DNA of 41,769 nucleotides from Acidobacteriota bacterium (GTDB taxonomy: Bacteria; Acidobacteriota; Polarisedimenticolia; J045). The stretch covers positions 1 to 41,769 of the forward strand of contig JALUUK010000408.1 of the NCBI GenBank assembly GCA_027021395.1. The letters run 5' to 3'. The position numbers were made by a program, and so were the translations under genes. Numbering within the stretch: the first letter of the stretch is position 1; every line of letters starts with the position of its first letter. Positions 12,133-41,769 of this stretch are shown piece by piece. A model generated the notes under the pieces. The model saw only the letters and a program-made list of their open reading frames with translations. It did no database searches and had not been told where the DNA came from.

Positions 12133-12239
12133 TCGCGACCGGAGGTCTCCCGTGGGTTTTCTGGTCTGGAGACCTTCGGTCCGTCGGGTGGGACGGTCCG
12201 GAGACCGCCCCACAACAGGGTGGGCGGTGCCCACCCTAC
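12133..12239 (-). repeat. composite palindromic repeat (GGTCTCC...GGAGACC block + GTAG REP)
   Basis: Same block recurs at 18.7, 19.4 and 21.9 kb; supplies TAG stop of 12236..12907. Confidence 0.8.
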
Positions 12240-12907
12240 CCGATGGTCACGAAACGCCACTCGGAGGTGAACGTGACGCCGTTGAGAGTCACGGAGGCCT
12301 TGGCCTGGTACTGCCGGTCGTCGGTGAAGTTCGGCGTCGATTGCTCCGCCTCGAATACGTCGTCGTGAAGGTCCGCCGCCGTGAAGGTCTTCGTGAAAAG
12401 GTTCACCCCCGACTGATGCTCGCGGACGACGACCTGCGCCGTGCAGTTGCTGTCGACGGCGTCGACGTCGACCTTCCGGCCATCGTGTTCCAGCCAGACG
12501 GCAATTTGCGCGGCCGACCCCGACGTGCTCTTGACGTTCATTTCACATTTCACTTCGACGGGCAGAAGACCTCGGCGTCCCAGTCGCACGGTCAACGGCA
12601 CCGGTTCCTTCACAGCGTTGTCGTTGGGGCTGGGTGTCCCGTTGTCGAAGATTTTGACGATACAGTCCCGGGCCACGGCCGTATTGTTGATCGCCGACAG
12701 GTCCAGGTCCCACAGATATTGGCTGCGACCTTGGCCGGCCGCGCCGGTCTGCTCGGCATCCGCGAACTTGTGCGGCGTGGTGGCCTGCGAGAACGATTTG
12801 AACGTATTATCCGCGAAGTCGAAGACGTCGCCGTTGGCGGCGTCATACACGCGTAGATAGAGGTTCGCGCTGGACGCGTATTCGACGCTCAGACGCTGCG
12901 TTGCCAT
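12236..12907 (-). CDS. phage structural/tail protein
   Basis: MATQRLSVEYASSANLYLRVYDAANGDVFDF...; in operon. Confidence 0.6.
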   Translation of the reverse strand: MATQRLSVEYASSANLYLRVYDAANGDVFDFADNTFKSFSQATTPHKFADAEQTGAAGQGRSQYLWDLDLSAINNTAVARDCIVKIFDNGTPSPNDNAVKEPVPLTVRLGRRGLLPVEVKCEMNVKSTSGSAAQIAVWLEHDGRKVDVDAVDSNCTAQVVVREHQSGVNLFTKTFTAADLHDDVFEAEQSTPNFTDDRQYQAKASVTLNGVTFTSEWRFVTIG

Positions 12908-14980: not shown

Positions 14981-15706
14981 TTAAATTCCCAGAAACATCA
15001 AAAACGGCGCCCCTTTCGCTGGGACTTCGCCGAACGGATAGGACAGCGCGTTTGCGCTGTTGTAGAGTTCACTTACCTCAGATTGGCTTAACGCTCGCCT
15101 CCAAAACCCCATCTCATCGATCCGGCCCGGGAAATAGTCGACGGAGTACCCGCCGGAGATTCGGCACCCGACGCAATATTTTCCCGAGGACGTGAAACCG
15201 CTAGTTGTTCCACTCCAGGAGTTCGCGGTCCGAGTCGCGTTCGAGTAGAACTCGATTTCGACGCCGTTCTTGATCACGAATACCAGATGCCGCCACGCGC
15301 CCGAGGTCCACGCATTGGCCGATCGCACGATGAGCGGCTGAGTCATGCTCGCCGAGTCCTTCAGCAGGCCCTCGTAGTAGTAGTAGCCCGACGGGTCTTT
15401 CACCATGCGGACGGCAAACTCGATGTTCGTGTCTCCCTTATAGACCAGATAGACATCATCAGCCGGCGTCGTCGTATAAGCCCACAGACTGATCGTCAGG
15501 TCCGACGTTCCAAGGCGAAAGTCGGGATGGTCATCGACATAGAGCCACGTACTTGTCCCCACGCGCACAGCGTATCCGAGTATCCCTGGGTCAGGCTGTG
15601 GGGATCCCACCGCATTGAGCGTGTGGGGGCCGTGGGAGTCGGCACGATTGCCGGTCGTGTTTTCGTCGAACTTCCAGTACGAGACCAGGCTGTCTAGCAA
15701 GCTCAT
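14981..15706 (-). CDS. LamG/concanavalin-like carbohydrate-binding tail protein
   Basis: LVSYWKFDENTTGNRADSHGPHTLNAVG...WAYTTTPADDVYLVYKG...GRIDEMGFWRRALSQSEVSELYN. Confidence 0.8.
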   Translation of the reverse strand: MSLLDSLVSYWKFDENTTGNRADSHGPHTLNAVGSPQPDPGILGYAVRVGTSTWLYVDDHPDFRLGTSDLTISLWAYTTTPADDVYLVYKGDTNIEFAVRMVKDPSGYYYYEGLLKDSASMTQPLIVRSANAWTSGAWRHLVFVIKNGVEIEFYSNATRTANSWSGTTSGFTSSGKYCVGCRISGGYSVDYFPGRIDEMGFWRRALSQSEVSELYNSANALSYPFGEVPAKGAPFLMFLGI

Positions 15707-17277
15707 AGGTTTTGTCCCAGCACGAATCCGTCGTAACTGTCTGCCCCGGTGCAGAGGAACCCGAACACATCTGTCTTGTTGGCCCCGGTACTCAGGTTGG
15801 GCACACTTCCACCCGGCCAGCGAATGCCGCTCCACCAGGTCACGGTTCGACCGCCGGTCGAGTCTTGCGTCACCCGGATCAAGAAACGCTGGCCGACAGA
15901 GACGTTGGTGACCGCGAGCGTCCGGTCGCCGCCCAGGGTGACCTGGTGGACGTCGGCGACGTCCATATCGAACGTGATTGTTGCCGCGTCCGCATCGGTT
16001 TGAATCGCGCCGGCTGTCGCCTTCGTATGGATCTTGTCCGTCCCGTCGTCGATCGTGACGGCGCTGCTCTGCAGCACCTTGCCGGTCGTGCCGTCGAACT
16101 TGGCGATGCCGTTGTCGGTGGAACTTGCCGGCCCGGAAACGTCACCGCTTCCTCCGCCGCCGCTCCAGCCGGCTTCTGCCTGTGTCTGGTTGATCCACGC
16201 GCCCGACGCGGCGTCCCAATGGAGACCTTCGTTGTCAGTCACTGCCGTAATCGTGACGTCCGGCACGTCGTCGAGCTGCGTGATCGACAATAACCGCCAG
16301 ACCGCGGCGCCGGCGGTCGCGTCGACGCACATGTAGACTTTGTCCGCAGCGGTGTCGATCCAGAGAGACCCGACAGAATAGCCGGCGTTGCTGTCGTCGC
16401 TGGCCGTCGGGGCGGTTGTGCGCGCGAACTCGCTCCGGACCTGTTGGGCTGCGCCGGCTTCGATCCGGATCAGCCCCGACCAGGCGGAAGCGTCCGAGCC
16501 CAGGCCGCCCCGAGCCAGGGGAAGGACGCCGCTGGTGAGGTCACTGGTATCGTGTGTGTGCGCCGCGGCGGCGAGCTGGGCTTCGGCGGCGGTTTGATTC
16601 GTCCAGACTCCCGAGGCGGCGTCCCAAGCGAGCACCTCGTTTTCCGTGACGTTGCTGATCTGGACGTCGGTGAGATTACCCAGAGTGCCGCTGCCGCCCC
16701 CGCCGCTGAGCTGGAAGAAAGACAGCGCATCCGTCCCGACAACATCCGAGCCGGCGTTGTTCGTGCAGACGAAGAGCTGGTCGGCATACGTCGCCCCCTC
16801 CTTGACGAGCACCAGGTGCCCGGCCACGGCGTCACCGGCCGCCATGTCGTCCGTGCGGATCCACGTGTTGGCACTGTCCGTGCCGATCTCGTACAGCCCA
16901 TTCTCCACGCCGTTGGTCTGGGCGCGGACCAGCACGCGATCACCGGCCTGGAGTGATACGCCGTCGATCGTCTGGACGCCAGCCAGCGTGACGTTGGCCG
17001 TGGTGGCCGCGCGAGCACCGGAGAGCCGGATCGCTTCCCCTCGGACGTATTCGGCACCGTGGAGGCCGTCGAGCAGGTCCGCGTTGAGGTTGGCGACCCG
17101 TGTGTTGCTGTCGACGACCAACGGCGCGACGCCTGGCGGCGCGTCGGCGTAGAAAGTTTCGGCGCGAATCTGGAACGGGCCAGCGTCCCAATCCGCAGTG
17201 AGCTGCACGGTTCCGTCGCGCAGCAGAGCGTTATCGGCTCCCCCTAACGACGGAACGACCAGGATTTCCTCCGCCAT
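15703..17277 (-). CDS. tail fibre protein
   Basis: AAAAHTHDTSDLTSGVLPLARGGLGSDAS typical fibre motif; repeated WDAASG(V/A)W(T/I)NQT(A/Q)AEA units. Confidence 0.8.
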   Translation of the reverse strand: MAEEILVVPSLGGADNALLRDGTVQLTADWDAGPFQIRAETFYADAPPGVAPLVVDSNTRVANLNADLLDGLHGAEYVRGEAIRLSGARAATTANVTLAGVQTIDGVSLQAGDRVLVRAQTNGVENGLYEIGTDSANTWIRTDDMAAGDAVAGHLVLVKEGATYADQLFVCTNNAGSDVVGTDALSFFQLSGGGGSGTLGNLTDVQISNVTENEVLAWDAASGVWTNQTAAEAQLAAAAHTHDTSDLTSGVLPLARGGLGSDASAWSGLIRIEAGAAQQVRSEFARTTAPTASDDSNAGYSVGSLWIDTAADKVYMCVDATAGAAVWRLLSITQLDDVPDVTITAVTDNEGLHWDAASGAWINQTQAEAGWSGGGGSGDVSGPASSTDNGIAKFDGTTGKVLQSSAVTIDDGTDKIHTKATAGAIQTDADAATITFDMDVADVHQVTLGGDRTLAVTNVSVGQRFLIRVTQDSTGGRTVTWWSGIRWPGGSVPNLSTGANKTDVFGFLCTGADSYDGFVLGQNL

Positions 17278-18627: not shown

Positions 18628-18821
18628 CAGGTTGTGGTCGGGTCTCCCGACCCGATCACCATTGCGACCGGAGGTCTCCCTCCCGTTGTGATCAGGTCTC
18701 CTGACCCGATCACTACTGCGACCGCAGGTCTCCAGTGGGTTTTCTGGATGGGAGACCTTCGGTCCGTCGGGTGGGACGGTCTGGAGACCGCCCCACAACA
18801 GGGTGGGCAGTGCCCACCCTA
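18628..18821. repeat. composite palindromic intergenic repeat block
   Basis: gttgtggtcgggtctcccgacccgatcacc, second unit gttgtgatcaggtctcctgacccgatcac, ggtctcc...ggagacc, REP ggtgggcagtgcccaccctac. Confidence 0.85.
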
Positions 18822-18832
18822 CTGGAGGCGGA

Positions 18833-19257: not shown

Positions 19258-19507
19258 CGCCGGCGTGAGCCGGCGGCTGCGGCTTCTCATTGGTGGGCGG
19301 TGCCCACCCTACCCGCTACCCGCCGGCTCACGCCGGCGGTTCGCCCCGGTTGTGGTCGGGTCTCCCGACCCGATCACCATTGCGACCGCAGGTCTCCAGT
19401 GGGTTGTCTGGTTGGGAGACCTTCGGTCCATCGGGTGGGACGGTCTGGAGACCGCCCCACAACTTCGGTCCCTGGGGTGGGCCGGTCCGGAGACCGGCCC
19501 ACAACCG
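19258..19507. repeat. composite palindromic intergenic repeat block
   Basis: gccggcgtgagccggc, ggtgggcggtgcccaccctac, gccggctcacgccggcgg, tcgggtctcccgacccga, ggtctcc...ggagacc twice. Confidence 0.85.
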
Positions 19508-19521
19508 TGGCTGATGCCACG

Positions 19522-21054
19522 TTACTTGGCGGCGCCGCTCAGCATCGCCGCCGCCGGCCTTTTGGCACGTGTCGGTCCGCGTGTGTTGTTTTCCGTCTTG
19601 CGTGTGTTCTCGGCGATCTCCTGGAGCGCCTTCTGCTGAGCTTGAGCCTGTCGGCGCATCTCGGCCAACTCCTCATCACTGGGTATGTAGGCCTGCGAAG
19701 TGCGGGCTCGCATGCGGACGGCCTGCGAATACGCATTGTCGCCGAATCCGAACCACAGGGCCTGTTCCGGCGTTGCGCCAAACCCGCGCGCGAGTTTGTA
19801 GCCAGCCATCTTGATGTAATACTGGGCCGGGGCCATTCCGATCTCTTTGGCGACGTTTTTCATTTCCTGCTCGTAAACGTCCGCCAAGTCGTCTTGGGCT
19901 GCGGAGGCGAGCCGGCCGCGCCCGGCGGCTCGACGGGCGGCGGCCGTCCGGCCGCTAAAGGCCTCGCGCACATCTTTGTCGAATTCGCCCGCTTTTTGTT
20001 TGGCGATCATCTCTTCGAATATATCGCTCCCCTTAATCATCTTGCGTGAGGCAGCAACGGTCCGATCGCCGAACAGCGTGGCCAAAATCGCCGCGCGGTC
20101 TTTTTCTGGGGCCTGCTCGTAACCTGCTCGGAGGCGTTTCAGGACTTCGCCGATCGATTCACCAACCAGGTCGACGTCTTCCGGTCGCAGACCGAGCTGT
20201 TGCAGAGCCTTGACTTTGGCCTTTTCCTTGCCGGCGGTCTGCAGCCTAAGAATGAAATTCCGCAAGCCGGTCGTGGATTCCTCGGCGGGGAAGGATTGCC
20301 GCGCGAGGGCCAGCATCGCGAGCTGCTCCTCGATGGACAGAGCCCCCTCAAACGTGGCGGCCTGCTTGGCGAATTGCTGCAGGTCGGCGACTTGGATGTT
20401 GGTCGACTTGAACAAGGCCTGTACGCCGCGGCCGACGCGACGCAGATTCTGCGCGTTGAGCTCCAACCCTTGCGACGACATGTAAGAGGCGATGGCCTGC
20501 GCCATTTCGCGGGGCTCGACGTCTTTGCCCGTCAGCGTCGAAGCCCCCATCAGTTTCAAGAACTCGCGCAAGGATTCACCAGTGGCCTCCTCGACGGAGA
20601 AACCGCTCGACACCAACTGCCTGGCAGCGGCCTCTGCGCTCACGACGGGCGTTTCGCTGATGGGGAGCTGCAGAGCGATCTGCTCGATGCGTTTCTGCGC
20701 CTTTTCGGCCTCCAGTCCCCGCAGTCCGGCCTGGACGCGGAATTTGCGGAAGGCCTCATCCATCGTCTTACCTGCTTCGACAGCTTCGTGCTGCCATTCC
20801 TGGCTGGCCTGCATGACCAGATGCAGCGCTCCGACCACACCGCCTGCTCCGATCAGCCCTTCGACGAGTGAGCGGGCCGAGCTGAGTGCGCCGGCGAACA
20901 GGCCACGCGTGGCTTGCTGAGTGCGCAAACCAGCTTGCGCCGTGCGCTGCAGGGCCAGATTCGTGCGCAATATCTGCTGCTGCGTGCGCTGGAAGTCCCG
21001 CAGCACGTCGCTCATGTCGGAGGTGATGGTAAAAACGGCCTCGCCGGCAGGCAT
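19522..21054 (-). CDS. tail tape measure protein
   Basis: Helical/hydrophobic; LQRTAQAGLRTQQATRGLFAGALSSARSLVEGLIGAGGVVGALH...; conserved position downstream of tail tube and chaperone-like ORF. Confidence 0.75.
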   Translation of the reverse strand: MPAGEAVFTITSDMSDVLRDFQRTQQQILRTNLALQRTAQAGLRTQQATRGLFAGALSSARSLVEGLIGAGGVVGALHLVMQASQEWQHEAVEAGKTMDEAFRKFRVQAGLRGLEAEKAQKRIEQIALQLPISETPVVSAEAAARQLVSSGFSVEEATGESLREFLKLMGASTLTGKDVEPREMAQAIASYMSSQGLELNAQNLRRVGRGVQALFKSTNIQVADLQQFAKQAATFEGALSIEEQLAMLALARQSFPAEESTTGLRNFILRLQTAGKEKAKVKALQQLGLRPEDVDLVGESIGEVLKRLRAGYEQAPEKDRAAILATLFGDRTVAASRKMIKGSDIFEEMIAKQKAGEFDKDVREAFSGRTAAARRAAGRGRLASAAQDDLADVYEQEMKNVAKEIGMAPAQYYIKMAGYKLARGFGATPEQALWFGFGDNAYSQAVRMRARTSQAYIPSDEELAEMRRQAQAQQKALQEIAENTRKTENNTRGPTRAKRPAAAMLSGAAK

Positions 21055-21872: not shown

Positions 21873-21979
21873 TGCCGGCTTACGCCGGCGGGGTCTCTGG
21901 TTGGGAGACCTTCGGGCCGTCGGGTGGGACGGTCCGGAGACCGCCCCACAACAGGCAGGGTGGGCGGTGCCCACCCTAC
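21873..21979 (-). repeat. composite palindromic repeat with GTAG REP
   Basis: gccggcttacgccggcgg + ggtctc...ggagacc + ggtgggcggtgcccaccctac; supplies TAG stop of 21976..22860. Confidence 0.8.
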
Positions 21980-22860
21980 GTGATGGCGACGCCGCTAGCG
22001 GCTGTTAACGTCTTGCCTTCGATCTGCAGCGACAAGGTCGCGGTGTCCCCTTCGTCGCCAGCCGCCGCGTCGATCAGTGTCAGTCCGGCGCCGAAGCTGA
22101 ACTTGCAGTGGCTCAAATTACCGTCCGCCTCGTACGTTCCCCCGTCCGCGCGCTTCCGGAAATACACCTCCAACGAAGTCAGGGCGGCTGCGATCTCGTG
22201 CAGGGAATCGAGCAACGTCAAATCGCGCGTCGTGATCGTGATCCGTGGTCGGAAAGGCGTTTCCAGGCTGGCAAAATCGGGATAAGGTCCGCCGCCACTG
22301 CGGGTCAAATTCAAACGCAGTCCGGTGTCAATATTCACGTCGGCCACTTCCCCGATCGTCGTGCCGTTGATTTTGACGGGACCGAGACCGAAGGCGCCGG
22401 CGAAGGACGACGCTGCCAGGGATTGATTCACATTCGCAGCCACCGGTGAGGTCAGCCCATCGCTGGAGAACAGGGCCAAATCGATGGACGCCTCCGCGTT
22501 GTCTGTCCCGCGAGCGCGGAAGCTACTGGCGATCGCCAGCCCATTGGTCGCTGTCAGGGTCAAGTGCGCTGTGCCGCTGGCCCAGGTCCCGCCGGGCTGG
22601 CGCTTGATCCAGGGGATCGTGATCGAACCGGCCGAGATGTAGAGTCCCGACGAGACGGGGATCCCGCTGATGACGCCAGCGATGTCCTCGGTATCGATCG
22701 TCACGCGTGGTTCGGCCCGCACCAGAGCTACCAGACTGTCGGCCGTGTCGCCGGGTGCGGCCGCCCGCAGTTCCTGGGCCGATGGGTTGTACCGAGTCCG
22801 CGTGATCTGGCGGATAGTGACCGATCCAATCGTCGGGTCGTAGATGCTAAATTGAGTCAT
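21976..22860 (-). CDS. major tail (tube) protein
   Basis: Position before tape measure; beta-rich SIYDPTIGSVTIRQITRTRYN... Confidence 0.6.
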   Translation of the reverse strand: MTQFSIYDPTIGSVTIRQITRTRYNPSAQELRAAAPGDTADSLVALVRAEPRVTIDTEDIAGVISGIPVSSGLYISAGSITIPWIKRQPGGTWASGTAHLTLTATNGLAIASSFRARGTDNAEASIDLALFSSDGLTSPVAANVNQSLAASSFAGAFGLGPVKINGTTIGEVADVNIDTGLRLNLTRSGGGPYPDFASLETPFRPRITITTRDLTLLDSLHEIAAALTSLEVYFRKRADGGTYEADGNLSHCKFSFGAGLTLIDAAAGDEGDTATLSLQIEGKTLTAASGVAIT

Positions 22861-24280: not shown

Positions 24281-25249
24281 TCACGTGATGTTCGACAGCA
24301 GATACCCGGCTTCGACGTAGAGCAGCTTCTCGTCTACGTCGTGGCGCACGCGGATCACGTCGCTCCGGATCGACTCCTCCCGGTACGACTCGATCACGCC
24401 ATTGGGCGAGCTACCGTCGCCAGCCCAATGGAAGGTGCGGCCCAAGCAGGGCTCCCGGAAGTCGTTCGTCCGGGCCACGCGGCAGACCAGGGCGTAACTA
24501 TCGGACCAGATCGAGGCCAGTGACGCACTCTGCCCTTCGTTGGCCGTGTTCTTGACGGCGTTCGCGACGATGATTTCGTCCAGGTCGAACGCCTGAGCCA
24601 GAGCCGCCTCCGTGATGGCACCAGCCCGTACGTCGACGAAACCTTGGTACTTCACGCGGTCGATGATCTGCGCGCAGTTGCGCAGGTGCCGAAACACCTT
24701 GCGGCTGATGACCAGGGCGTTGGGCCAGAGGCCCGAGTTGGACCAGACGGCGTTGACGGCGGTCTCGACGTCGTCCAGCGGCGTCGCGCTGGCGTGGGTG
24801 GACCACTTGGTGCCGACCGCGCTGGTCTTTCCGCTGAAGGTGCTGGTGCTGAACAGCAGGCTGGCGACCCGTTGCTCGGCGTTGCGCATCACCACGTCGA
24901 AGGCCCGGCGGGCCGCGATCAGCTCAGCGTCGAAATAGTTCGCATACATCGCGGCCTCGCGGTCGTCGACCGGTTCTTCGGCTCCGTACTCCTGACAGGC
25001 GAAGCTGTCGGTGGTGAACTTCCACTGACCGCGGCTATAGCCGGCCCCGGGGGCGCGCCGCACCTCGCGGTTCTGCAGCAACTGCTCAATCGGGATTTTG
25101 CCGAACACTCCGCTCTGGCTGGCGACTTCGACGACGGGGAAGACCCGGCTCGCGATGTAGCCGGCCCGCTGCATCTCCAGATCGAATTCTTCGAACGACT
25201 CGCTCAGATCAGGTCGGAGCGTTGCGAGAGACGAGGAAGGACTTGGCAT
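24281..25249 (-). CDS. major capsid protein (lambda gpE-like)
   Basis: RPDLSESFEEFDLEMQRAGYIASRVFPVVEVASQSGVFGKIPIEQLL...; located after decoration protein. Confidence 0.8.
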   Translation of the reverse strand: MPSPSSSLATLRPDLSESFEEFDLEMQRAGYIASRVFPVVEVASQSGVFGKIPIEQLLQNREVRRAPGAGYSRGQWKFTTDSFACQEYGAEEPVDDREAAMYANYFDAELIAARRAFDVVMRNAEQRVASLLFSTSTFSGKTSAVGTKWSTHASATPLDDVETAVNAVWSNSGLWPNALVISRKVFRHLRNCAQIIDRVKYQGFVDVRAGAITEAALAQAFDLDEIIVANAVKNTANEGQSASLASIWSDSYALVCRVARTNDFREPCLGRTFHWAGDGSSPNGVIESYREESIRSDVIRVRHDVDEKLLYVEAGYLLSNIT

Positions 25250-25759: not shown

Positions 25760-26221
25760 TCAGTTGGCGTTGGCTTCGGCGATCAAGGCCTCCCGAAGCT
25801 CGGGGTTCTCTCGGGCCACGAGCTGGACGGCTTTGAATCGGGGCAGCCCTTCGGCGACCTTCGCGCGGACCAGCTCGCGCCATTGGTCTCGGACCGATCC
25901 GGAGCCGGCGGCGATAGAATTGGGCGTGCCATCGGCCAGAGCTTCTGTCCCGGGCGAGGCGGTGGCTTTCAAAGTCTCCAGCTCGGCTCGGAGTTTCTCG
26001 GCTGCGGCGCGCGCTTCGTCGCGCTCCGCGCGAGCGGTCTGCAGATCCGTCTGGAGTTCTTCCAGCCGCAGAGCTTGCCAAGCCAGGAACTCTTCGCGAG
26101 CCTTTTCGACGCTCAGCCCTCGCTCGATCCACTCCAGCAAAAGTTGGCTGTCGGCGCCCGGGCACGCCCCTTTCAGCTCGTTCAGCGTCGCGGCCCGGGG
26201 TTCGTTTCGTTCGTCACTCAC
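25760..26221 (-). CDS. predicted nested in-frame scaffold protein (Nu3-like)
   Basis: Internal GGAGG-N7-GTG at 26221 in frame with the protease; 153-aa coiled-coil product. Confidence 0.5.
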   Translation of the reverse strand: MSDERNEPRAATLNELKGACPGADSQLLLEWIERGLSVEKAREEFLAWQALRLEELQTDLQTARAERDEARAAAEKLRAELETLKATASPGTEALADGTPNSIAAGSGSVRDQWRELVRAKVAEGLPRFKAVQLVARENPELREALIAEANAN

Positions 26222-27058
26222 CGTCGAACCTCCTCGATCAGATTGCGAGTCCACAAACCGTTGGAACGACGTCAGCACGGACTCGTAGGTGCCGACCTCG
26301 TCGATCAGTCCCAGCCGGCGGGCTTCGGCCGCCAGCCAGACGCGGCCGTCCGCCAAACGGTTCAATTGCTGCTCGGACACATTGCGTCCCCGGCGCACGG
26401 CCGCCAAGAAAAACTCGTTGTGTTCTTCGACCAAGCGCTGCCACTCCGCGAGCTGCTCGTCCGTGATCTCGGTGCCCGGCACCCCCGCGCCCTTGAAGCG
26501 GCCCGTCGTCAACAGGTGCACCTTGATGCCGGCGTCTTCAAACAGACCCGTCCAGTCCCAGACGACGGCATAAGTGCCGATCGAGCCGATCAGAGCCGGT
26601 TCGTTGGCCGCAATCCGATCGGCCTGGCTGGCGATCCAGTAGGCGGCGGAGGCCCCGAGGTCCTCGATGTAGGCCCAGACAGGCTTCCACTGTGCGGCGG
26701 CGGCGACGTCATCCGCGAGTTCCTTGGTCCCGTCGAACGCGCCACCGGGCGAGCTGATCCGCAGCAGAATGCCAGCGACCTGGTCGTCGGCGAGCGCTCG
26801 CCGCAGCCGGTCTCGCACGTCCACGGTCGACGTCCCGCGCCAGGGTTTCGCTTTTGCCAGCGGTCCTCGCAGTTCGAGGATCGCGATGGAGCCGGCACGC
26901 TCGAATGCGCCCGCACCGTCATCCTGCTGGGCCCGGTCGGACCAGAGGCGATCCCCTCTCAGACACGCCTCGATGGCCAACCGGGCCTGCTGCGGTGCGA
27001 CGGCCCAGACGGTTTCCGCCGCCCCGGCCGGTGCTTCAGTCCATCTCGTCTGCGGCAT
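25760..27058 (-). CDS. S49/SppA-like prohead protease with C-terminal scaffold
   Basis: ISSPGGAFDGTKELADDV, DLGASAAYWIASQADRIAANEPALIGSIGTY; coiled-coil C-terminus. Confidence 0.9.
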   Translation of the reverse strand: MPQTRWTEAPAGAAETVWAVAPQQARLAIEACLRGDRLWSDRAQQDDGAGAFERAGSIAILELRGPLAKAKPWRGTSTVDVRDRLRRALADDQVAGILLRISSPGGAFDGTKELADDVAAAAQWKPVWAYIEDLGASAAYWIASQADRIAANEPALIGSIGTYAVVWDWTGLFEDAGIKVHLLTTGRFKGAGVPGTEITDEQLAEWQRLVEEHNEFFLAAVRRGRNVSEQQLNRLADGRVWLAAEARRLGLIDEVGTYESVLTSFQRFVDSQSDRGGSTVSDERNEPRAATLNELKGACPGADSQLLLEWIERGLSVEKAREEFLAWQALRLEELQTDLQTARAERDEARAAAEKLRAELETLKATASPGTEALADGTPNSIAAGSGSVRDQWRELVRAKVAEGLPRFKAVQLVARENPELREALIAEANAN

Positions 27059-28619
27059 CGTTTACTCCGTTTGGGTTGGCTTCGTCGCCGGAAAGCGCCA
27101 ATCGGATTCCCTGCGCCGTGGGCGTCGGGATAAGGTCACGCCAATGGACATCGACGCCAAGCTCGTCGGACAACTGGCGTGCGGCTTCAGCCGCCAGCCG
27201 AATGGCAAACGCTCGGTCTTCGACGATCTCGCGCGCCAGAACGACCCAATCGGTGCCCCGCTTCGCGGCGAAGCGCCGGGGACTGGTCATACCGTTGGCC
27301 AGCTCCAGCAAGTTCGCCGTGGCGTCGTGCACCGGCTGGATGTACGGCCAACCGACGGGATTCCATCGGTGACGCATCAGGTCGGCGACGCTTTTCGTAC
27401 GCGCGAATGCCTGCAGCTCGGGATCATTCAGCAGCCATTGGCGGACTTTCCAGCGATAGACCTCGGCGTGGAACTGGCTGGCAAACCAAGACTGGATCTT
27501 GCCATACGTGGCGCGGGCTTGATCGATGACGTTGCGATAGCTGCTGAAGTTGGCCTCGCGCGCATCCAAGAGCAGCACGATCAGCGGCAGGTCCAGATTG
27601 ACGGCCAGGTAAGTCAGTAACAGGCGAACGTGCTCGAAGTACGGTTCGCTCGGGATGCTCGGTGAGAACCCGCTGAGCTTCTCGCCCGGCTCGCCTTGCA
27701 GGATCATTCCTGGATGCAGGCTGGTCTGAGTGAAGCCTGTGCCGTCCGCCCAGGTCGAGCTGGTCTGCTCGCCCAGTTCCGAGCCGTCGCTGCTGGCCAT
27801 CGAGCCCAATTCCCGTTCGCGGAAGAACGCCACACAGGCCGACACCTGGGCCTTGACGAGCATGGCGAAATCCAAGTCGTCGCGCATGCCCAGGACGGTC
27901 GTAACCGGTGCCAGGGCCGTGATGCCGCGTGTCTGGCTGAATCGCTCGGGATTGTAGACGTGAAAGACCAGGCGATTGCCATCGGCGTCGACAGCCGGGA
28001 CGCGGCGGACGTCGGCGACGCGCACCTGCTCGTTCGGGTCGACCGGTTCCCGCGTGAAGGTGTACGCGACGGGCCGGGCTCGGTTATCAAGAATCACGCC
28101 GCAGACGCCGCGATCGCGACGGGCGCGGTCGGGCGTGCGGCAGCGGTGGGCTTCGAGCGTCTGCAAGGTTCCGTCCCGTAACGGCAAGGCGAAAAAGTCG
28201 CCGTCGATGACGACCCGGGCCAGGCCCAGATCGGCCATCTGCTCGAAGGTCAGTTTGCCGGCCGCGTGGCAAACGCTCGGCTGCGAAGACCACTCCTGCC
28301 ATCGCGAGCGCAGATGCTCGTCGACTTCCGGGTCCCCGGTGTCGGGATCGAGCTGCATCCCGCCCACGTTCACGTTGCACACGAGCCGGCGGACTGCCTG
28401 ACGGATCAGAGGTTCGTTCCGCTCGAAGTGCCGCGCCAGCTCGACCATGGTCAGGAACCAACGCTGGTTCCGAATGTGGTAATCCGCGCTCGCGCCGTTC
28501 ACAGGAAGAGAGACCTGCCGCAAGAAGCGGTTGGACCGGTAGCGAGCGGCGTCATATTCCGCCCGGACTTCGGCCATTTGGCGGCAGATGGACGGTGGTC
28601 GTGGTCGTCGGTCAGGCAT
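27036..28619 (-). CDS. portal protein (lambda type)
   Basis: RSNRFLRQVSLPVNGASADYHIRNQRWFLTMVELARHFERNEPLIRQAVRRLV...HVYNPERFSQTRGITALAPV. Confidence 0.85.
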   Translation of the reverse strand: MPDRRPRPPSICRQMAEVRAEYDAARYRSNRFLRQVSLPVNGASADYHIRNQRWFLTMVELARHFERNEPLIRQAVRRLVCNVNVGGMQLDPDTGDPEVDEHLRSRWQEWSSQPSVCHAAGKLTFEQMADLGLARVVIDGDFFALPLRDGTLQTLEAHRCRTPDRARRDRGVCGVILDNRARPVAYTFTREPVDPNEQVRVADVRRVPAVDADGNRLVFHVYNPERFSQTRGITALAPVTTVLGMRDDLDFAMLVKAQVSACVAFFRERELGSMASSDGSELGEQTSSTWADGTGFTQTSLHPGMILQGEPGEKLSGFSPSIPSEPYFEHVRLLLTYLAVNLDLPLIVLLLDAREANFSSYRNVIDQARATYGKIQSWFASQFHAEVYRWKVRQWLLNDPELQAFARTKSVADLMRHRWNPVGWPYIQPVHDATANLLELANGMTSPRRFAAKRGTDWVVLAREIVEDRAFAIRLAAEAARQLSDELGVDVHWRDLIPTPTAQGIRLALSGDEANPNGVNDAADEMD

Positions 28620-28918
28620 CAGTCGCGAAACGTCTGAAAGGAGGCATGGATGACACGGCGCGAGCGCGACGCGGCGGTCGTATCGTGATTGCGGAGCCAT
28701 TCTTTGGCGGCCAAAAGCTCCTTGCGGATCAGGTCGGGGCTGAGAGCGACCTGATTTCCCCCCTTGCCGGTCAAACGAGGCATCATGCGCAGCAATAGCC
28801 GGCAGGCGGTGATGAAGACCTTCGCCTTCGCCGGCGAGTTGTCCTCCTCGTAGGAGGCATTGTCGGCGTAGGCCGCTTCGATGTCCGCCAAACTGCTCTG
28901 AGAATTCAGCGTGGCCAT
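28619..28918 (-). CDS. gpW-position head-tail joining protein
   Basis: Small protein between terminase and portal; TGATG coupling to portal. Confidence 0.45.
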   Translation of the reverse strand: MATLNSQSSLADIEAAYADNASYEEDNSPAKAKVFITACRLLLRMMPRLTGKGGNQVALSPDLIRKELLAAKEWLRNHDTTAASRSRRVIHASFQTFRD

Positions 28919-29313: not shown

Positions 29314-31287
29314 CTATCGATCCGTAGCCAAAAAAGGCCGACCATCTGGGGTCGTGAGCGTGCGAGGAACCACCCGCTGGCGGCGTCTGCGTGGGACCGG
29401 CTTACGCGACATCTCGCGGTTCCAATCCCGGCCGTTGTTCTTGTAGTGCCAGGCCATCACGACTGCATAGCGCAAGGCGTCGCGAAACTCGTTGTCCCCC
29501 CGCTTCCGCCAGTGACCGTTTTCGTCCAAATAGTCGTTGCAGAGCTGCTGCGCGAAGTCGATGCCCGTGACCGGCTGGCCGTGAAAGACTTCGGCCGGCA
29601 CGCTGAACCAATCCCGATCCGTGCGCTTCACCAGGCCGGTGATGCGGTCCTCGATCCATTGCTGCGTGCGCGTCGTGTTGGGCTCGATCAGGTCGTACTG
29701 GCCGATCTTGATCCGGGCTGCCACGAGCTTCGGCGGCACCCCGACCCGCTGCATCGCCGGCCGGTACATCTCAATAAAGTTCCCGGCAAAGAAAGGCCGG
29801 CTTGGGTCCGTCGAGGAGCCTTTCACGGGCCAACAATTGGGCAACTCACGGCAGAACGAATAAACCGCTTCGGTGAAGGCGCCCGAGTCGATTCCGATCC
29901 GGACCGGCCGCAGCGCAGGACCGCCATCCGCATGGGGGTACTCCCAGCGGGCGCAGGTGCGCCGCATCTCGTCCTTGCTCCACGCGATTCCGTAGTCGAC
30001 CAGTTGGGACCGAGCGTACTGTCCCCAGGCGATGACCACCCAGTAGAAGATCAGCTCCTCGCCGATCCGGCCCACGTCCGCCCCGACTGTCAGGAACCGC
30101 GACCACTCCGGACAGACTCCCAGCGGTTCATCCACGGCCAGGCGTTCCGCCAACTCGTGAGGCTCGACCGACCGCGGCGCTGGGTCCCACGGCTCGGCGA
30201 GCGTACCGGTGACGAACTCGCGCAACGAGTCGGCGTTGGCCTTGGCCGCGAGAAACTCCGCGACCAATGCGCCCCAGCCGGGGATGACCAAACTGTATAG
30301 CGACGAAATCCCGTCAAAGACGACGATGTCCGGACCGATTTTCGGCCGCCCCAGCACGCGCCCCGTCTTGGCCAACCGCTGGCCTTCCGCGATCCACTTG
30401 CCGGCACGGATCATGCCCGGACGATCCGCATCTGTGATCTTGCAGCCGCTCTGACAGCGATAATAGGCCGTGGCAACGGCTTCTGTAGCGCCGGCCTTGT
30501 CGTCCCACTTCACGCCCGGGCCTTTACCGCGATCGCCCCAAACCAGGCGCTGGTATTTCCCGCAGTGCGGACATCGCACGAAGAAATACCGCCGCTGCGC
30601 GGCTGCCGAGTCGGCGAAGCTGCTGATCGCGCAATCGCCGACTGCTTCCGGCTTGCCCTCCAGGATGTACTTGCTGTCATACGGAAACAGCCTTCCTCGC
30701 TGCAGGAATCGCCGGATCGCGTTCGGCGACCAAAGCCCGGCTTCGTTGACGACCCCGTAGCAGGCCGGATACCCCGCCAGACTGGCGCGGCTGCCAGCGT
30801 ACGCCTTGCGAATCAACCCTGTCTCCAGGCGGACGCCTAGTTTCAGGTTCTGGCGGTGCGGCGGCAAAAGGATCGGCTGGCCGGCTCGCAGCCGATGCGC
30901 CATCGGGATCACCAAGTTCTGCACCAGATCATCGACCGAGGCTTCGTCCGCCGACGCGACCGCACAAGGCCGCCCCGTCGTGACCGCCCAATACAGTAGA
31001 CAGGCGACGGCGGTCAGAGTCTTCGCCGACCGAGTCGCCCAGCGTAGCACGATTACGCGCACCATGGGATCGTCCACGGCCTCCAACACCCCGCGCACAT
31101 GAGGGAACATCGCAGCATCGAACGGCCCCGGCGTCTCGCACACGTCCGGGATAACGACATGCGCGGGAACCCACTCGGCGCACAGCACCCTTGGCGGCGG
31201 TCGCCATACCCGCCAACTGGCACGCAGCAGCTCGTTTGTCGCGACCCTCCTCTGCTGCTCACGAGACACTATCCTTCGTCTGGCCAC
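29314..31287 (-). CDS. terminase large subunit (gpA family)
   Basis: VIVLRWATRSAKTLTAVACLLYW, GSRASLAGYPACYGVVNEAGLW, FVRCPHCGKYQRLVWGD. Confidence 0.93.
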   Translation of the reverse strand: MARRRIVSREQQRRVATNELLRASWRVWRPPPRVLCAEWVPAHVVIPDVCETPGPFDAAMFPHVRGVLEAVDDPMVRVIVLRWATRSAKTLTAVACLLYWAVTTGRPCAVASADEASVDDLVQNLVIPMAHRLRAGQPILLPPHRQNLKLGVRLETGLIRKAYAGSRASLAGYPACYGVVNEAGLWSPNAIRRFLQRGRLFPYDSKYILEGKPEAVGDCAISSFADSAAAQRRYFFVRCPHCGKYQRLVWGDRGKGPGVKWDDKAGATEAVATAYYRCQSGCKITDADRPGMIRAGKWIAEGQRLAKTGRVLGRPKIGPDIVVFDGISSLYSLVIPGWGALVAEFLAAKANADSLREFVTGTLAEPWDPAPRSVEPHELAERLAVDEPLGVCPEWSRFLTVGADVGRIGEELIFYWVVIAWGQYARSQLVDYGIAWSKDEMRRTCARWEYPHADGGPALRPVRIGIDSGAFTEAVYSFCRELPNCWPVKGSSTDPSRPFFAGNFIEMYRPAMQRVGVPPKLVAARIKIGQYDLIEPNTTRTQQWIEDRITGLVKRTDRDWFSVPAEVFHGQPVTGIDFAQQLCNDYLDENGHWRKRGDNEFRDALRYAVVMAWHYKNNGRDWNREMSRKPVPRRRRQRVVPRTLTTPDGRPFLATDR

Positions 31288-34519: not shown

Positions 34520-34699
34520 ATGGGACGGGTCGAACGGGATCGGGAGTTGGCTCGGCGGCGGCATCGCCGGATGAAGCTGAGGAAACTGCGGCAGCGGTAC
34601 GCGCAGGCGACCCGGCCGTCCGAGAAAGCGGCCATCGTCGAAAAAGTCCGCAAAATCAGCCCGCTGCTCGACGTCGAAAAAGAATGGGCGACTAGGTGA
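34520..34699 (+). CDS. small basic planctomycete-type protein (DUF6800-like from memory)
   Basis: MGRVERDRELARRRHRRMKLRKLRQRYAQATRPSEKAAIVEKVRKISPLL. Confidence 0.5.
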   Translation: MGRVERDRELARRRHRRMKLRKLRQRYAQATRPSEKAAIVEKVRKISPLLDVEKEWATR

Positions 34700-34740
34700 C
34701 TCACGCCCAAGCCCCATCAGCGCTTTCGGGGGTCAGCAGC

Positions 34741-35574
34741 ATGGGGCGCTCGTTGCTGTCCAAACGCGAATTGGTCATCACTGCTAGCCTATTCGTGTCG
34801 ATCTGCATCGTCGCTGCGTTGCTCGGTCGGCCGGCGAGAGAGCACGCGAACTCGAAGGAAACACGCGTCGCGGCACCTCCCCCAAAGGCGACATCTCCGG
34901 CGTGGTCAATGCACTCGCCGATCCCCGTCAGTGCTGCACAGTACGGCGAGAAATGGCCCTTCACCGTGCAGTCCGGTTTCATAGCCTACGAAGCGCCCTG
35001 GCGCATTGTCTTTGTAGCCGAGGACGGAACGAAGTACGGATTGAACGGCGTCGCCAAGATGGCTGGGTACCGCGACGTCGAGACAATTTGGAGAGTGGAC
35101 CCCGAATACGGCCCGCCGGTGCATGTTCCGTATCAGTGGATGATCGAGCTCGCCATCGACCGCTGGAAATTGCGGGCTTCCGACGATCTACCCCCCGGGC
35201 AAGAGACCGCTGAGAGGGAGAGCCGCGAGCCCCGCTTGACCGACAGACACATCCCACTGCCGGTCAGTGCGAGCGAATGGGGTGAGCGGTGGCCCTTCAC
35301 TGTAGACGACGGCTACCTTCAGTACATTAGTCCTGGGCAGATCGTATTCATCAACGAGGCGCTCCCGGAGACGTTCGCGTTAAACGAGGCAGCTCGATCT
35401 GCCGGATACGACGATGTCAGAAAAATCCTGCGCATCAGGACCACCAATGGAGTCGCGACACGCATGTCCGTGCAGCCGCTAGTCCGCTATGCAATCGATA
35501 ACTGGGGTCTTGAGACCGGAAGGTGCAAAGTATGCCCCAAGGGCGCGCACCCAGAGGCGGATCAACGCAGCTAA
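34741..35574 (+). CDS. membrane-anchored protein with two tandem YebY/DUF2511-like repeats
   Basis: IPVSAAQYGEKWPFTVQSGFI...YGLNGVAKMAGY and LPVSASEWGERWPFTVDDGYL...FALNEAARSAGY. Confidence 0.7.
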   Translation: MGRSLLSKRELVITASLFVSICIVAALLGRPAREHANSKETRVAAPPPKATSPAWSMHSPIPVSAAQYGEKWPFTVQSGFIAYEAPWRIVFVAEDGTKYGLNGVAKMAGYRDVETIWRVDPEYGPPVHVPYQWMIELAIDRWKLRASDDLPPGQETAERESREPRLTDRHIPLPVSASEWGERWPFTVDDGYLQYISPGQIVFINEALPETFALNEAARSAGYDDVRKILRIRTTNGVATRMSVQPLVRYAIDNWGLETGRCKVCPKGAHPEADQRS

Positions 35575-35657
35575 CCGCACGACGGGACTTCTGATGAATG
35601 TGTGATCCGGCGGGCTCCACGCGGAAATGTACTATTACGAGAACGCGGCCATCCTGC

Positions 35658-35663
35658 TATAAT
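35658..35663 (+). promoter_or_regulatory. extended -10 (TGCTATAAT) 6 nt before repressor ATG
   Basis: tgcTATAATggagacATG; predicted leaderless transcript. Confidence 0.6.
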
Positions 35664-35669
35664 GGAGAC

Positions 35670-35933
35670 ATGATCGTGCGACGGGATGAAACATTTCGCA
35701 AAAGCCTTGAACGACTGATCGCATCAGGCCGAATCACCAAGTCCGAACTTTGCCGGCGAGCGGGGATGTCGCGTTCTCATCTTGACTACATCCTCAAGGG
35801 TGAAGTCGATCCGAAGATCAGGGTTTGCGACCGCATTGCTGATGCGGTTGGGATTCCTTTGCCTTGGCTGCTGGACCCTGATTTCGCAGAGACACTTTCC
35901 GCCGACGCGGAAACAGTGTCCAAGAGCGCTTGA
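35670..35933 (+). CDS. XRE-family HTH repressor-like regulator
   Basis: ITKSELCRRAGMSRSHLDYILKGEVDPKIRVCDRIADAVGIPLPWLL. Confidence 0.85.
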   Translation: MIVRRDETFRKSLERLIASGRITKSELCRRAGMSRSHLDYILKGEVDPKIRVCDRIADAVGIPLPWLLDPDFAETLSADAETVSKSA

Positions 35934-36376: not shown

Positions 36377-36622
36377 GAGGAAAAACTGGGCGCCGCGACG
36401 AGGCGGCGCCAGCGATTAAGGGATGCGGCAGGATGGCCAATCGGGACGGAGCGGGACAGATCGGGGTGGTCGGCCCCAGGGAGGTGAGGAGCGATGCGGG
36501 CCGGCGGCCCGGGCCTCTGAGCCGGAGGGTCGACGATGTATGCTGCATCCTTTCCGCCATTACACATCTCAGTCATTCTCCAATGGGGACAGCCGGAACA
36601 GTCGAGCACGGAGGGGCCGGTG

Positions 36623-37714
36623 ATGGCAGACCAGGGCGGGCCCGCCCCACGGTTGCGAGTGTTTCCCCCTACGGGGGCTTCTTCCCCCTACGGGATGGGC
36701 AATCCCGTAGGGGAAAACGATTCCGCCGGCTACTGGCCGCTGCGCCGCTGCTGGGAGGAATCGCTCTCAAAGAAAATCGAGCTCTCGCCGGCGACGCTGA
36801 AGCACTACCGCCGGCTCATCAACCAGTGGGAAGCTTACTGGCGCAAGCGCGGCTGCGAGCGTCCGCTCGGCCCGGACGTGCGCGAGATCCAGCCGAAGGA
36901 CTTCAACGATTTCGCTCGGGCCCAGGGGTGGACAGCGAAGTCCACCTGGTCCACGCGGCGCGATTATTTCGGGAAGATTCTGAAGTCGGTTGCCCGGGCG
37001 AGCAAATCGTGTCCGATCGGGCTGACGGAAGGCTGGCTCTTCGAGCAGCCGCCATTCCTCGCCCCGCTGCCGCCGGGGCTGGCGCCAAAGCCCGAGACGC
37101 CCGAAGCCCTCACCGTGGACCAATTCGCCCGGCTGCTGGAATGCTGCGACGGCGCTCGCTGGCCCTGGAGACGAGCGATCGTGCCGGCTCCGGTGCTGTG
37201 GCGTGCTTATCTGAGCTTCCTCTGGGTCTACGGGTCGCGCAAGGACGCGGCATTGCGGCTCACTTGGCGGGAGGTCGATCTGGAGCGCGAGCGGCTGGAT
37301 TACGTGCCGGACAAGAAGGCGGATCGGGTGTCGGTCGCCCTTCACACACTCTTGCTGCCGCTGCTGCATTTTCTCCGCGATCGATCGCCGGACCGCGTCT
37401 TCCCGTTTCCCAACACGGCGCGGACGGCCGCCCAGGAGAATTTCAATCCACAGCTCAAGGCGATTTTTCGGGCGGCCGGCCTGGTAGAGCATACCAGCCA
37501 CTTCTTTCGCGTCTGCTGCGTCACCAACTGGCAGACGCTGGTCGGGCGGCGGACTCGCTTCGTGACCGGACATCGGCCGCAGGGCGTGCAGGAAAAGCAC
37601 TACGACAGTCGAAGCGCTCGCCAGGTGATCGCCGAGCGAATGGCCGAGTATCCGATGCCGCCCGCCGAGACGCTCTGGGCTGGCTTACCGTTGGAATACC
37701 TTCCTGGAGCCTGA
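36623..37714 (+). CDS. tyrosine recombinase / phage integrase
   Basis: LWVYGSRKDAALRLTWREVDLE, HTSHFFRVCCVTNW, VTGHRPQGVQEKHYDSRS. Confidence 0.88.
   Translation: MADQGGPAPRLRVFPPTGASSPYGMGNPVGENDSAGYWPLRRCWEESLSKKIELSPATLKHYRRLINQWEAYWRKRGCERPLGPDVREIQPKDFNDFARAQGWTAKSTWSTRRDYFGKILKSVARASKSCPIGLTEGWLFEQPPFLAPLPPGLAPKPETPEALTVDQFARLLECCDGARWPWRRAIVPAPVLWRAYLSFLWVYGSRKDAALRLTWREVDLERERLDYVPDKKADRVSVALHTLLLPLLHFLRDRSPDRVFPFPNTARTAAQENFNPQLKAIFRAAGLVEHTSHFFRVCCVTNWQTLVGRRTRFVTGHRPQGVQEKHYDSRSARQVIAERMAEYPMPPAETLWAGLPLEYLPGA
36685..36713. repeat. 12-bp stem palindrome inside integrase 5' coding region
   Basis: CCCCTACGGGAT gggca ATCCCGTAGGGG. Confidence 0.8.
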
Positions 37715-38367: not shown

Positions 38368-38910
38368 ATGCGGGATTTCACCGACTACGAGCTTTGGGTG
38401 GTCCGCCAAGCTGAGGGAATCGTCCGTATGCTGCAGGAGGCGGCTCAAATCGCACAGGCCACCATACCGCCCCTTGGCAAGACCTGCAGCCGTCGCGAAC
38501 TGGAGCTGTACCGGGAGATCATCGACGCCCGCCGCGCCGCCATAGAAGCAAGAGACCGCCTTGGCCAAGCGATCGACCTATATCGTACGCCGGCGATGGC
38601 CGGACCTTTTCCGAGAAAGGAGGAGCACGCAATGGGAGAGACCGTTCGTTATTCGATAGGTGTGGATAGCCCAATCACTCCACAGGAACCTCTGCCGGCG
38701 CTGCCGGAGATTCCTCGCGGCGCCTTGGTGGTGGTCGAGGGGTGGGCGCCGATCTGGCGGTACGCGATGGCGCTTCACCGGCTCCACGGGTCGCCGGCCG
38801 GTGCCATCGCGGTCTATGACCCGCGTCTCGGAGCCGTCGTTGTCCAGAGCCACACGCCCGCATACGCGGAAGGGGACGTGCTGGACTTCCCGGAGGATAG
38901 GGCGCAATGA
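38368..38910 (+). CDS. helical N-terminal domain plus Csx3/Crn3-like domain (long form)
   Basis: Continuous frame from MRDFTDYELWVVRQAEGI through the Csx3-like C-terminus. Confidence 0.6.
   Translation: MRDFTDYELWVVRQAEGIVRMLQEAAQIAQATIPPLGKTCSRRELELYREIIDARRAAIEARDRLGQAIDLYRTPAMAGPFPRKEEHAMGETVRYSIGVDSPITPQEPLPALPEIPRGALVVVEGWAPIWRYAMALHRLHGSPAGAIAVYDPRLGAVVVQSHTPAYAEGDVLDFPEDRAQ
38632..38910 (+). CDS. Csx3/Crn3-like putative cyclic-oligoadenylate ring nuclease (short form)
   Basis: SD aaaGGAGGagcacgcaATG; GALVVVEGWAPIWRYAMALHRLHGSPAGAIAVYDPRLGAVVVQSHTPAYAEGDVLDF matches the Csx3 G..PIW...A-H...VAVYDPRLGAVVVQSH...GDV signature. Confidence 0.85.
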   Translation: MGETVRYSIGVDSPITPQEPLPALPEIPRGALVVVEGWAPIWRYAMALHRLHGSPAGAIAVYDPRLGAVVVQSHTPAYAEGDVLDFPEDRAQ

Positions 38911-40045: not shown

Positions 40046-40264
40046 ATGCTAGTGCTCGGACGCCAGCAAGGCGATTCGATCGTGATTGATACGCCGCTGG
40101 GCGAGATCACTATCACCGTTGTGCGGCTGGGCCAGCGCTACGCTCGGATCGGCATCGAGGCCCCGGCCGGCTGGCCGATCGTCCGATCCGAGATTCGCGG
40201 CCGCGAGGAACCGGCAGACGACGAACTGCCGATGCGCGTGGCGTTGAGGAATCTGCGGACGTGA
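40046..40264 (+). CDS. csrA: CsrA/RsmA-family RNA-binding translational regulator
   Basis: MLVLGRQQGDSIVIDTPLGEITITVVRLGQRYARIGIEAPAGWPIVRSEI matches the CsrA core; SD aggagg. Confidence 0.88.
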   Translation: MLVLGRQQGDSIVIDTPLGEITITVVRLGQRYARIGIEAPAGWPIVRSEIRGREEPADDELPMRVALRNLRT

Positions 40265-40357: not shown

Positions 40358-41242
40358 GTGCAACTGGAATTTGACTTCGATCCCAAACTCGAATCAGCAG
40401 CGAAAAACGATGAGCGACTGGAGGCCGTCGGAGTCTCAGCAATGCGGCGAGCCGTGATCTGGCTGTTCCAACTCCACCCGGAAGCCAAGCGCGATGGCAC
40501 GTTGATCCGGCTCGATCTGAGCTTCATAAAGGCATCCCAGTGGCTGCGCAACCAGGCTCGGTGGCGAAACTTGCGCTGTGCCGACACGAACGTGCGACGC
40601 GCCTGCGTGTTCTGGCAGCAATTGCACTGCGTCGCGATCCTGAAGCGACCACGAGTCCTGCTGCTGGATGTGGCGCGACTGAGCGAGTGGCTCTATCGCG
40701 AACAAGAAGCGGTGGAACGAGCCGTCTCGTCGGCTCTCAATTTCGCCGGCGACGGAGCCCCCCCGAAAACAAATCCGACCCGGTCCGACCCGATCCGACC
40801 CGCGTCGACCCTCAGTGAGAGAGTGAGTGAAGAAAAAACTCATTCACTCACTCACTCTGTGGGCGGGGTGGATCGGTCCGATCGGACGGATCAGACGGAT
40901 CGGACAGATCATCCCTCGGCACCGGCCGGGGCGTCGGTGGTGCTGCCTCGGCTGCCGGTGGAGGTGTGGGAGCCCGGCCGAGACGATCGGTCGCTGTATC
41001 GGCTGCTGCGGGCGTATTGGACCGAGCACGGGCCGGCCCTCGAGGCGGCCGGCATCGACGCCGACACGTTCACCGGCGCCGTCCTGGCCGCTCGGGCCCA
41101 GCCACGCACCGACCCGCAGCGTTACGCCGAGCGGTGCCTGGAGCTCGGCCTGACGGAGAACTGGCTCGCCCAGGGGCGCGCCTGGCGCCGCCGGCAGAAG
41201 ATTCTGTTCTCTCGGCCTATCACACATGGAGCGGTGCAATGA
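40358..41242 (+). CDS. phage replication initiator-like (lambda O-type organisation)
   Basis: N-terminal winged-helix-like domain (AVIWLFQLHPEAKRDGTLIRLDLSFIKASQWLRNQ), low-complexity linker encoded by repeats, C-terminal conserved domain; SD aaggaggg. Confidence 0.55.
   Translation: MQLEFDFDPKLESAAKNDERLEAVGVSAMRRAVIWLFQLHPEAKRDGTLIRLDLSFIKASQWLRNQARWRNLRCADTNVRRACVFWQQLHCVAILKRPRVLLLDVARLSEWLYREQEAVERAVSSALNFAGDGAPPKTNPTRSDPIRPASTLSERVSEEKTHSLTHSVGGVDRSDRTDQTDRTDHPSAPAGASVVLPRLPVEVWEPGRDDRSLYRLLRAYWTEHGPALEAAGIDADTFTGAVLAARAQPRTDPQRYAERCLELGLTENWLAQGRAWRRRQKILFSRPITHGAVQ
40771..40810 (+). repeat. decamer array CCGACC inside the initiator gene, inverted relative to 40264 array
   Basis: aaatccgacc cggtccgacc cgatccgacc cgcgtcgacc. 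Confidence 0.8.
40871..40914 (+). repeat. 9-bp repeats GATCrGACr encoding D-R/Q-T units
   Basis: gatcggacggatcagacggatcggacagatc. Confidence 0.75.
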
Positions 41243-41577
41243 CACTGAAGCAAGGCGAACCGCCGGCGTCAGCCGGCGGGTGTAAAGCGGCTGAACAGTC
41301 AGACGTGCCAAACCCGCTGGAGCGGGCCCTATTCCTCTGCGGGATACTGTGCGCCCTGCTGCGGAGACATCCGCAAGGGCGGGTCCTATTCATCGCCCGC
41401 CAAGCGGAACAGCACACCTGGGTCGTCATTTGCCGGCGGCGGGACTGGCCGCGAGCGATCTGGCAGCTCGCTCGTTGGGCCTTCGACCGCTCGCTCCCGC
41501 TCCGCCCCCGCCACGCCCTCGGTCTGGCCGTGCGGCTCACCGTGCAGCTTTTTAGTGCGAGGCATAGCCATGATTGA
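41239..41577 (+). CDS. hypothetical early phage protein, paralog of 637..954
   Basis: ATGA coupling with initiator; same conserved core as left-end copy, N-terminus carries REP-derived insert. Confidence 0.7.
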   Translation: MTLKQGEPPASAGGCKAAEQSDVPNPLERALFLCGILCALLRRHPQGRVLFIARQAEQHTWVVICRRRDWPRAIWQLARWAFDRSLPLRPRHALGLAVRLTVQLFSARHSHD

Positions 41578-41769
41578 AGTCCCAACAGCAACACAGCTTT
41601 TTGCACTCGCTCGCGGCGTTAACGTCCGATTCGGCGACCACCGCTGCTATTACTGCGGCGGAGCGTGTGCCGAGGAATGTGTGCCGGCCAGCGAGCATGT
41701 GAAGGCGAGCTTCACAAGTCGGGACACGGTTTGCGGCGGGGATCGGGTCTGCGACGGGTGTATTTCGGC
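41570..41769 (+). CDS. Cys-rich zinc-finger protein (3' truncated by window end)
   Basis: HRCYYCGGACAEECVPASEHVKASFTSRDTVCGGDRVCDGCIS. Confidence 0.6.
   Translation, partial: MIEVPTATQLFALARGVNVRFGDHRCYYCGGACAEECVPASEHVKASFTSRDTVCGGDRVCDGCIS

Follow-up and report, generated by a model that had tools for sequence, protein, structure and literature searches.

The 41,769-nucleotide contig JALUUK010000408.1 of an Acidobacteriota bacterium (GCA_027021395.1), contig C408 of this metagenome-assembled genome (MAG) and here called the window in its whole length, carries a csx3 gene within a phage genome. It is near certain that the open reading frame (ORF) at 38632..38910 is a true Csx3/Crn3 and that it lies in a phage, apart from cas genes. 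The product is probably a phage-borne Crn3 ring nuclease from the Card1-linked clade of type III-B Csx3 proteins, originally a host enzyme that the phage would have taken over for use against type III CRISPR. Its most likely function would be to destroy cyclic tetra-adenylate (cA4) and so to act against type III CRISPR; we infer this enzymatic activity, the cA4 substrate, the anti-CRISPR role and the host from homology and gene context.

The csx3 gene and its product

The features of the gene are as follows.

38632..38910, plus strand: Csx3/Crn3-like ring nuclease, 92 aa (PF09620, TIGR02579, AF2/PDB matches, catalytic residues)
38728..38757, plus strand: cA4-contact loop VVVEGWAPIW, with E at AfCsx3 S44 and W at R46 (alignment)
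38368..38631, plus strand: in-frame stop-free stretch of 88 codons, possible N-terminal part of a 180-aa protein (ORF list, codon-position GC)

A preliminary description of this DNA had named the protein Csx3/Crn3-like, and the matches obtained go far beyond chance. The 92-aa protein scored 79.5 bits against the Pfam family Cas_csx3 (PF09620; cut-off 21, E 1.7e-22), with nearly the whole profile covered, and 65 bits against the NCBIfam family Crn3/Csx3 (TIGR02579; equivalog cut-off 55.4, E 5.6e-18). It was also matched by the Csx3 model of PADLOC (E 3e-25) and by the A. fulgidus Csx3 (AfCsx3) of the PDB, both in sequence (E 4e-13) and in fold (E 8e-7). An AlphaFold (AF2) model built from a 27-sequence alignment reached a pLDDT of 94, and the PDB entries matching it at E<=0.001 were all AfCsx3 (6vjg, 3wzi and 6yud best, TM 0.69-0.77), 6yud being the AfCsx3 complex with cA4. 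The structural likeness to Crn3 that had been predicted is therefore present. Moreover, Cas_csx3 was the sole match in a Pfam scan at E<=1, with no similarity to DUF1874, in agreement with the earlier view that the protein is distinct from the AcrIII-1 ring nuclease.

The DPR motif and the conserved histidines, on which that description relied, were recovered by alignment: H49, H52, D63, R65 and H74 of the window protein correspond to H57, H60, D69, R71 and H80 of AfCsx3, so that all five are kept. In AfCsx3 these residues are either needed for activity or absolutely conserved (PMC7371418). The residues of AfCsx3 that contact cA4 are S44, G45, R46 and I49, with G45 and I49 absolutely and S44 and R46 highly conserved (PMC7371418). 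The window protein keeps G45 and I49, and its E at position 44 is usual in its clade.

The start codon is the ATG at 38632, which has GGAGG 8 nt before it, that is, the Shine-Dalgarno (SD) sequence of its own already ascribed to the gene. The peptide is indeed encoded at 38632..38910, but the limits given for the ORF did not stand entirely, since the frame is open further 5' to an ATG at 38368, 1 nt past the stop of the preceding ORF (ORF 38368-38910). The 88 upstream codons are coding-like (codon-position GC 0.70/0.47/0.69); the corresponding 88 aa gave no Pfam match and have no relatives among viral contigs. The product may be the 180-aa form, the 92-aa form made from its own SD, or both.

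Viral and cellular relatives

Other carriers were sought with four IMG/VR scans and one plasmid scan, the pattern search covering 2.9 million viral contigs. The gene is rare, with Csx3 found on about 20 further virus-classed contigs and on one phage-like element of Pyramidobacter, and the search for it in other phages that had been proposed was thus successful. The other phage copies share 75% (L024), 66% (L025), 65% (L026), 56% (L070 and L071) and 51% (L027) identity with the window copy, and more distant viral copies occur on L028, L029, L074-L076, L078, L079 and L081. Several of the carriers are clearly phages. The gene for the terminase large subunit lies ~1.9 kb from csx3 in L025 and ~4 kb from it in L079, a tape measure gene is present in L075 and an endolysin gene in L071, while phage replication genes accompany csx3 in L024, L026, L028 and L072. 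Some carriers are large, such as the contigs of L081 (272 kb) and L078 (167 kb). The Pyramidobacter element, 18 kb long and from an isolate, contains a holin, an integrase and regulators of LexA-like and of Cro-like type; crn3 lies two genes beyond the Cro-like one. Six copies (L003, L004, L030, L074, L076 and L082) lie on contigs that are classed as viral and nothing further, and were left out of the strong evidence.

RAMP cas genes were absent from every viral record searched whole. Likewise, BLAST searches for Cmr, Cas10, Card1 and Cas1 gave no match in the viral stretches, whereas in the cellular loci of the window's clade, which served as control, Cas10 or Cmr genes were detected in 13 of the 22 stretches examined. 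Six queries gave no Csx3 match among the INPHARED phages, and the window model had no match among the BFVD viral structures.

Two unusual forms were seen among the viral copies. The Csx3-like protein of L004 (7890-8198) has A at the positions of both D69 and R71 and is a possible non-catalytic binder. In L070 (6224-6955) and L071 (7530-8261), a longer phage protein ends in a fused Csx3, which has K for R71.

Within the phylum of the window, Csx3 was found in 7 of 297 genomes. The closest homologue there, 75% identical, immediately follows a Card1 gene, and the type III-B locus to which both belong has Cas1/Cas2 and a long array as well. Scanning GTDB genomes added 21 loci of the same clade (63-78% identity), mainly from Planctomycetota and Methanothrix. 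Most of these closest cellular homologues lie within type III-B loci, and a Card1 gene is present in 12 of the 22 cellular loci, nearly always adjacent to csx3. The gene that precedes csx3 in these loci is Card1, and its assignment as cmr6 was rejected.

Viral and cellular copies are interleaved on a Csx3 tree of 53 sequences, which has few columns and rough bootstrap values; parsimony counts nine switches, at least four of them forced by well supported branches. Phages appear to have acquired cellular Csx3 on more than one occasion. On the tree, the window copy is placed to the level of the Card1-linked clade. For the phage pair L026/L068, the nonsynonymous and synonymous distances were dN 0.125 and dS 0.665 (dN/dS ~0.19), so that purifying selection acts on the gene at least in the lineage of these two phages. 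For the window copy and that of L024, dN was 0.22 and dS was near saturation.

The carrier phage and its putative host

The entire window is also IMG/VR contig IMGVR_UViG_3300028399_000013, which has equal length and a 100% identical Csx3. Its phage features are listed below.

15703..17277, minus strand: tail fibre / virion structural protein (phrog_2647, phrog_11518)
19522..21054, minus strand: tail tape measure protein, a weaker match (phrog_1293, E 5e-7)
24281..25249, minus strand: major head protein (phrog_1005, E 6e-58)
25760..27058, minus strand: head maturation protease (phrog_53, E 1e-61)
27036..28700, minus strand: portal protein (phrog_21, E 1e-62)
29314..31287, minus strand: terminase large subunit (phrog_15, E 2e-85)
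35598..35933, plus strand: helix-turn-helix (HTH) regulator of Cro/C1 type, early region (PF01381, 32.5 bits)
36536..37714, plus strand: tyrosine integrase (phrog_1, E 1.7e-16; Pfam Phage_integrase E 1.8e-4, below cut-off)
40891..41769, plus strand: right contig end repeating the left end (97% over 306 bp, 86% over 242 bp)

The csx3 gene belongs to the early region and has the integrase close by. Since phage structural genes are present and a search of the whole window record for RAMP cas genes returned 0 matches, csx3 is both phage-borne and stand-alone, as had been stated. The last ~880 bases of the window match its first ~900 apart from differences at the strain level, as expected for a circularly permuted phage genome of ~40.9 kb carrying an integrase. 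Because the contig ends overlap, the window is probably a near-complete phage; and as it represents the whole contig, cas genes just outside it are unlikely. The preliminary description had spoken of a prophage. A phage genome with an integrase was indeed found, but not its integration, as no host flank was recognised on the contig and the ends overlap.

Some other traits of this genome deserve mention. A phage-encoded CsrA-like protein is found near the right end (40046-40264; PF02599, 53.5 bits, above cut-off), and the protein encoded 5' of the HTH regulator (34696-35574) has two DUF2511 matches (PF10709, 55.9 bits). In the structural region, a repeat of ~40-95 bp, with copies 88-92% alike, occurs at 12154-12246, 18737-18822, 19401-19505 and 21890-21986.

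The window copy is the sole Csx3 in the whole MAG. MAG contig C68 has a type III-D locus, and in its Cas10 the GGDD motif is intact and no HD motif is seen. A CARF-PDDEXK (Card1-like) effector stands before this locus, and type I-G genes come after it. Nucleases of the Card1/Can2 kind are known to bind cA4 and to respond to it (PMC7969007, PMC11014256). The C68 system would depend on a second messenger and would consequently be sensitive to a ring nuclease. In the arrangement on this contig (L021, 616-17363), the type III-D locus with its Card1-like effector passes directly into Cas3g and Csb1 of type I-G. A TIGR02578 match on contig C560 was dropped (20.8 bits vs a cut-off of 170). The short contigs C564, C799 and C35 (L099, L100 and L098) of the same bin have DNA matches of 66-93% to parts of the window and are probably fragments of related phages.

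Proposed function and its alternatives

In the mechanism that we propose, Csx3 would act at an early stage of infection or in the lysogen, forming head-to-tail dimers that would sandwich the cA4 made by the host Cas10. The cA4 would be cut in a Mn2+-dependent manner to linear A2-P, as in AfCsx3, and CARF effectors such as Card1/Can2 would stay inactive, allowing the phage to survive type III targeting. The relatives on ~15-20 other viral contigs suggest that phages use Crn3 to silence the type III alarm.

Several observations weigh against this proposal. W at the cA4-contact position R46 is found in the window copy alone, with R or K in nearly all of the ~50 aligned relatives, which lowers our confidence that the window copy is fully active. 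Among the viral copies, L004 has lost D69 and R71, L071 has R71K and L072 is broken. The reading frame of csx3 may also yield the 180-aa protein. As for the host, its link with the phage rests on binning only, in a MAG with 6.9% contamination; two 20-kb DNA searches revealed no recognisable spacer match between MAG and window, and in tetranucleotide composition the MAG contigs differ among themselves as much as the window differs from them.

With R46W, the window copy may have a lower activity, act as a sponge or take another ligand. A protein that binds cA4 or another cyclic oligonucleotide and cuts it poorly, due to R46W together with E at S44, seems unlikely to us. In its favour, R46W is unique in the alignment and both R46 and S44 contact cA4 in AfCsx3 (PMC7371418), but E at position 44 is normal for the clade, and the protein keeps all of H60, D69, R71 and H80, residues at which mutation removes or greatly reduces the activity of AfCsx3. 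R46W would also fit a cellular Csx3 recently acquired by chance and now decaying with no role in the phage, as would the broken copy of L072 and the rarity of the gene (~20 of 2.9 million viral contigs). Such a passenger is a little less likely still, because no other cas remnants lie nearby, the frame and the SD are intact, several phages have their copy among early or replication genes and the dN/dS of L026/L068 is low.

The gene may alternatively serve the lysogen, damping host type III signalling so that the prophage is tolerated when transcribed in a host with matching spacers, or modulating defence against rival phages. The integrase and HTH regulator near csx3 in the window and the LexA-like/Cro-like switch beside the Pyramidobacter copy agree with such a service, but its chemistry would be the same, which makes it hard to separate from the anti-type III role, and the large L081 and L078 contigs are unlike ordinary prophages. 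We regard it as improbable. The least credible explanation, with hardly any weight, is an artefact in which a fragment of host CRISPR sequence was joined to phage sequence. The assembly is metagenomic and the contig ends differ by strain variation, but the contig has no other CRISPR gene and the arrangement recurs independently, including in the Pyramidobacter isolate element. The capture of a cA4-degrading Crn3 from the Card1-linked clade is the explanation that we prefer.

A broader proposal can be put forward only tentatively. Viral Crn3 may form a separate class of anti-type III ring nucleases, acquired repeatedly from the CRISPR loci of cells (Card1-linked ones in the clade of the window) and used by phages ranging from temperate tailed to jumbo-size ones, with the window copy perhaps adapted by R46W, in the loop that binds cA4, to another ligand or mode.

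In comparison with known systems, the window protein is closest to Crn3/Csx3 (AfCsx3, AF_1864), to which it is alike above curated cut-offs and with which it shares fold and catalytic residues; it differs from AfCsx3 in being phage-encoded without CRISPR genes, in the E/W at S44/R46 and possibly in the extra 88-aa N-terminal part. The Card1-adjacent cellular Csx3 proteins (L007/L013, L031-L050) belong to the same clade and are 63-78% identical to it, but are cellular, mostly inside cmr operons, and keep R46. AcrIII-1 (DUF1874), the viral counterpart of Crn2, shares the proposed job of viral cA4 removal, but its fold is unrelated. AcrIII-2 (a viral SAVED ring nuclease, PMC12751052), phage Crn4b, Csx16 and Csx20 are also phage ring nucleases, with folds or families other than Crn3. 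A survey of 28,114 phages with hidden Markov models of ring nucleases reported AcrIII-1 (36 genomes), Csx20 (four) and Csx16 (two) and did not mention Crn3 (PMC12409355), and Crn4 has been reported in phages (PMC12830947). We found no description of viral Crn3 in the literature searched, although an earlier mention is possible.

Several ring-nuclease folds are already known to serve phages against type III CRISPR, and Crn3 is one of the well-studied cellular ring nucleases. The recurrence of a viral Crn3 so similar to Card1-linked cellular Csx3 provides matched host and phage enzymes, by which an off-switch and an anti-CRISPR could be compared in rate, affinity and timing. Viral Crn3 also suggests that Card1/Can2 is the effector branch that puts pressure on these phages.
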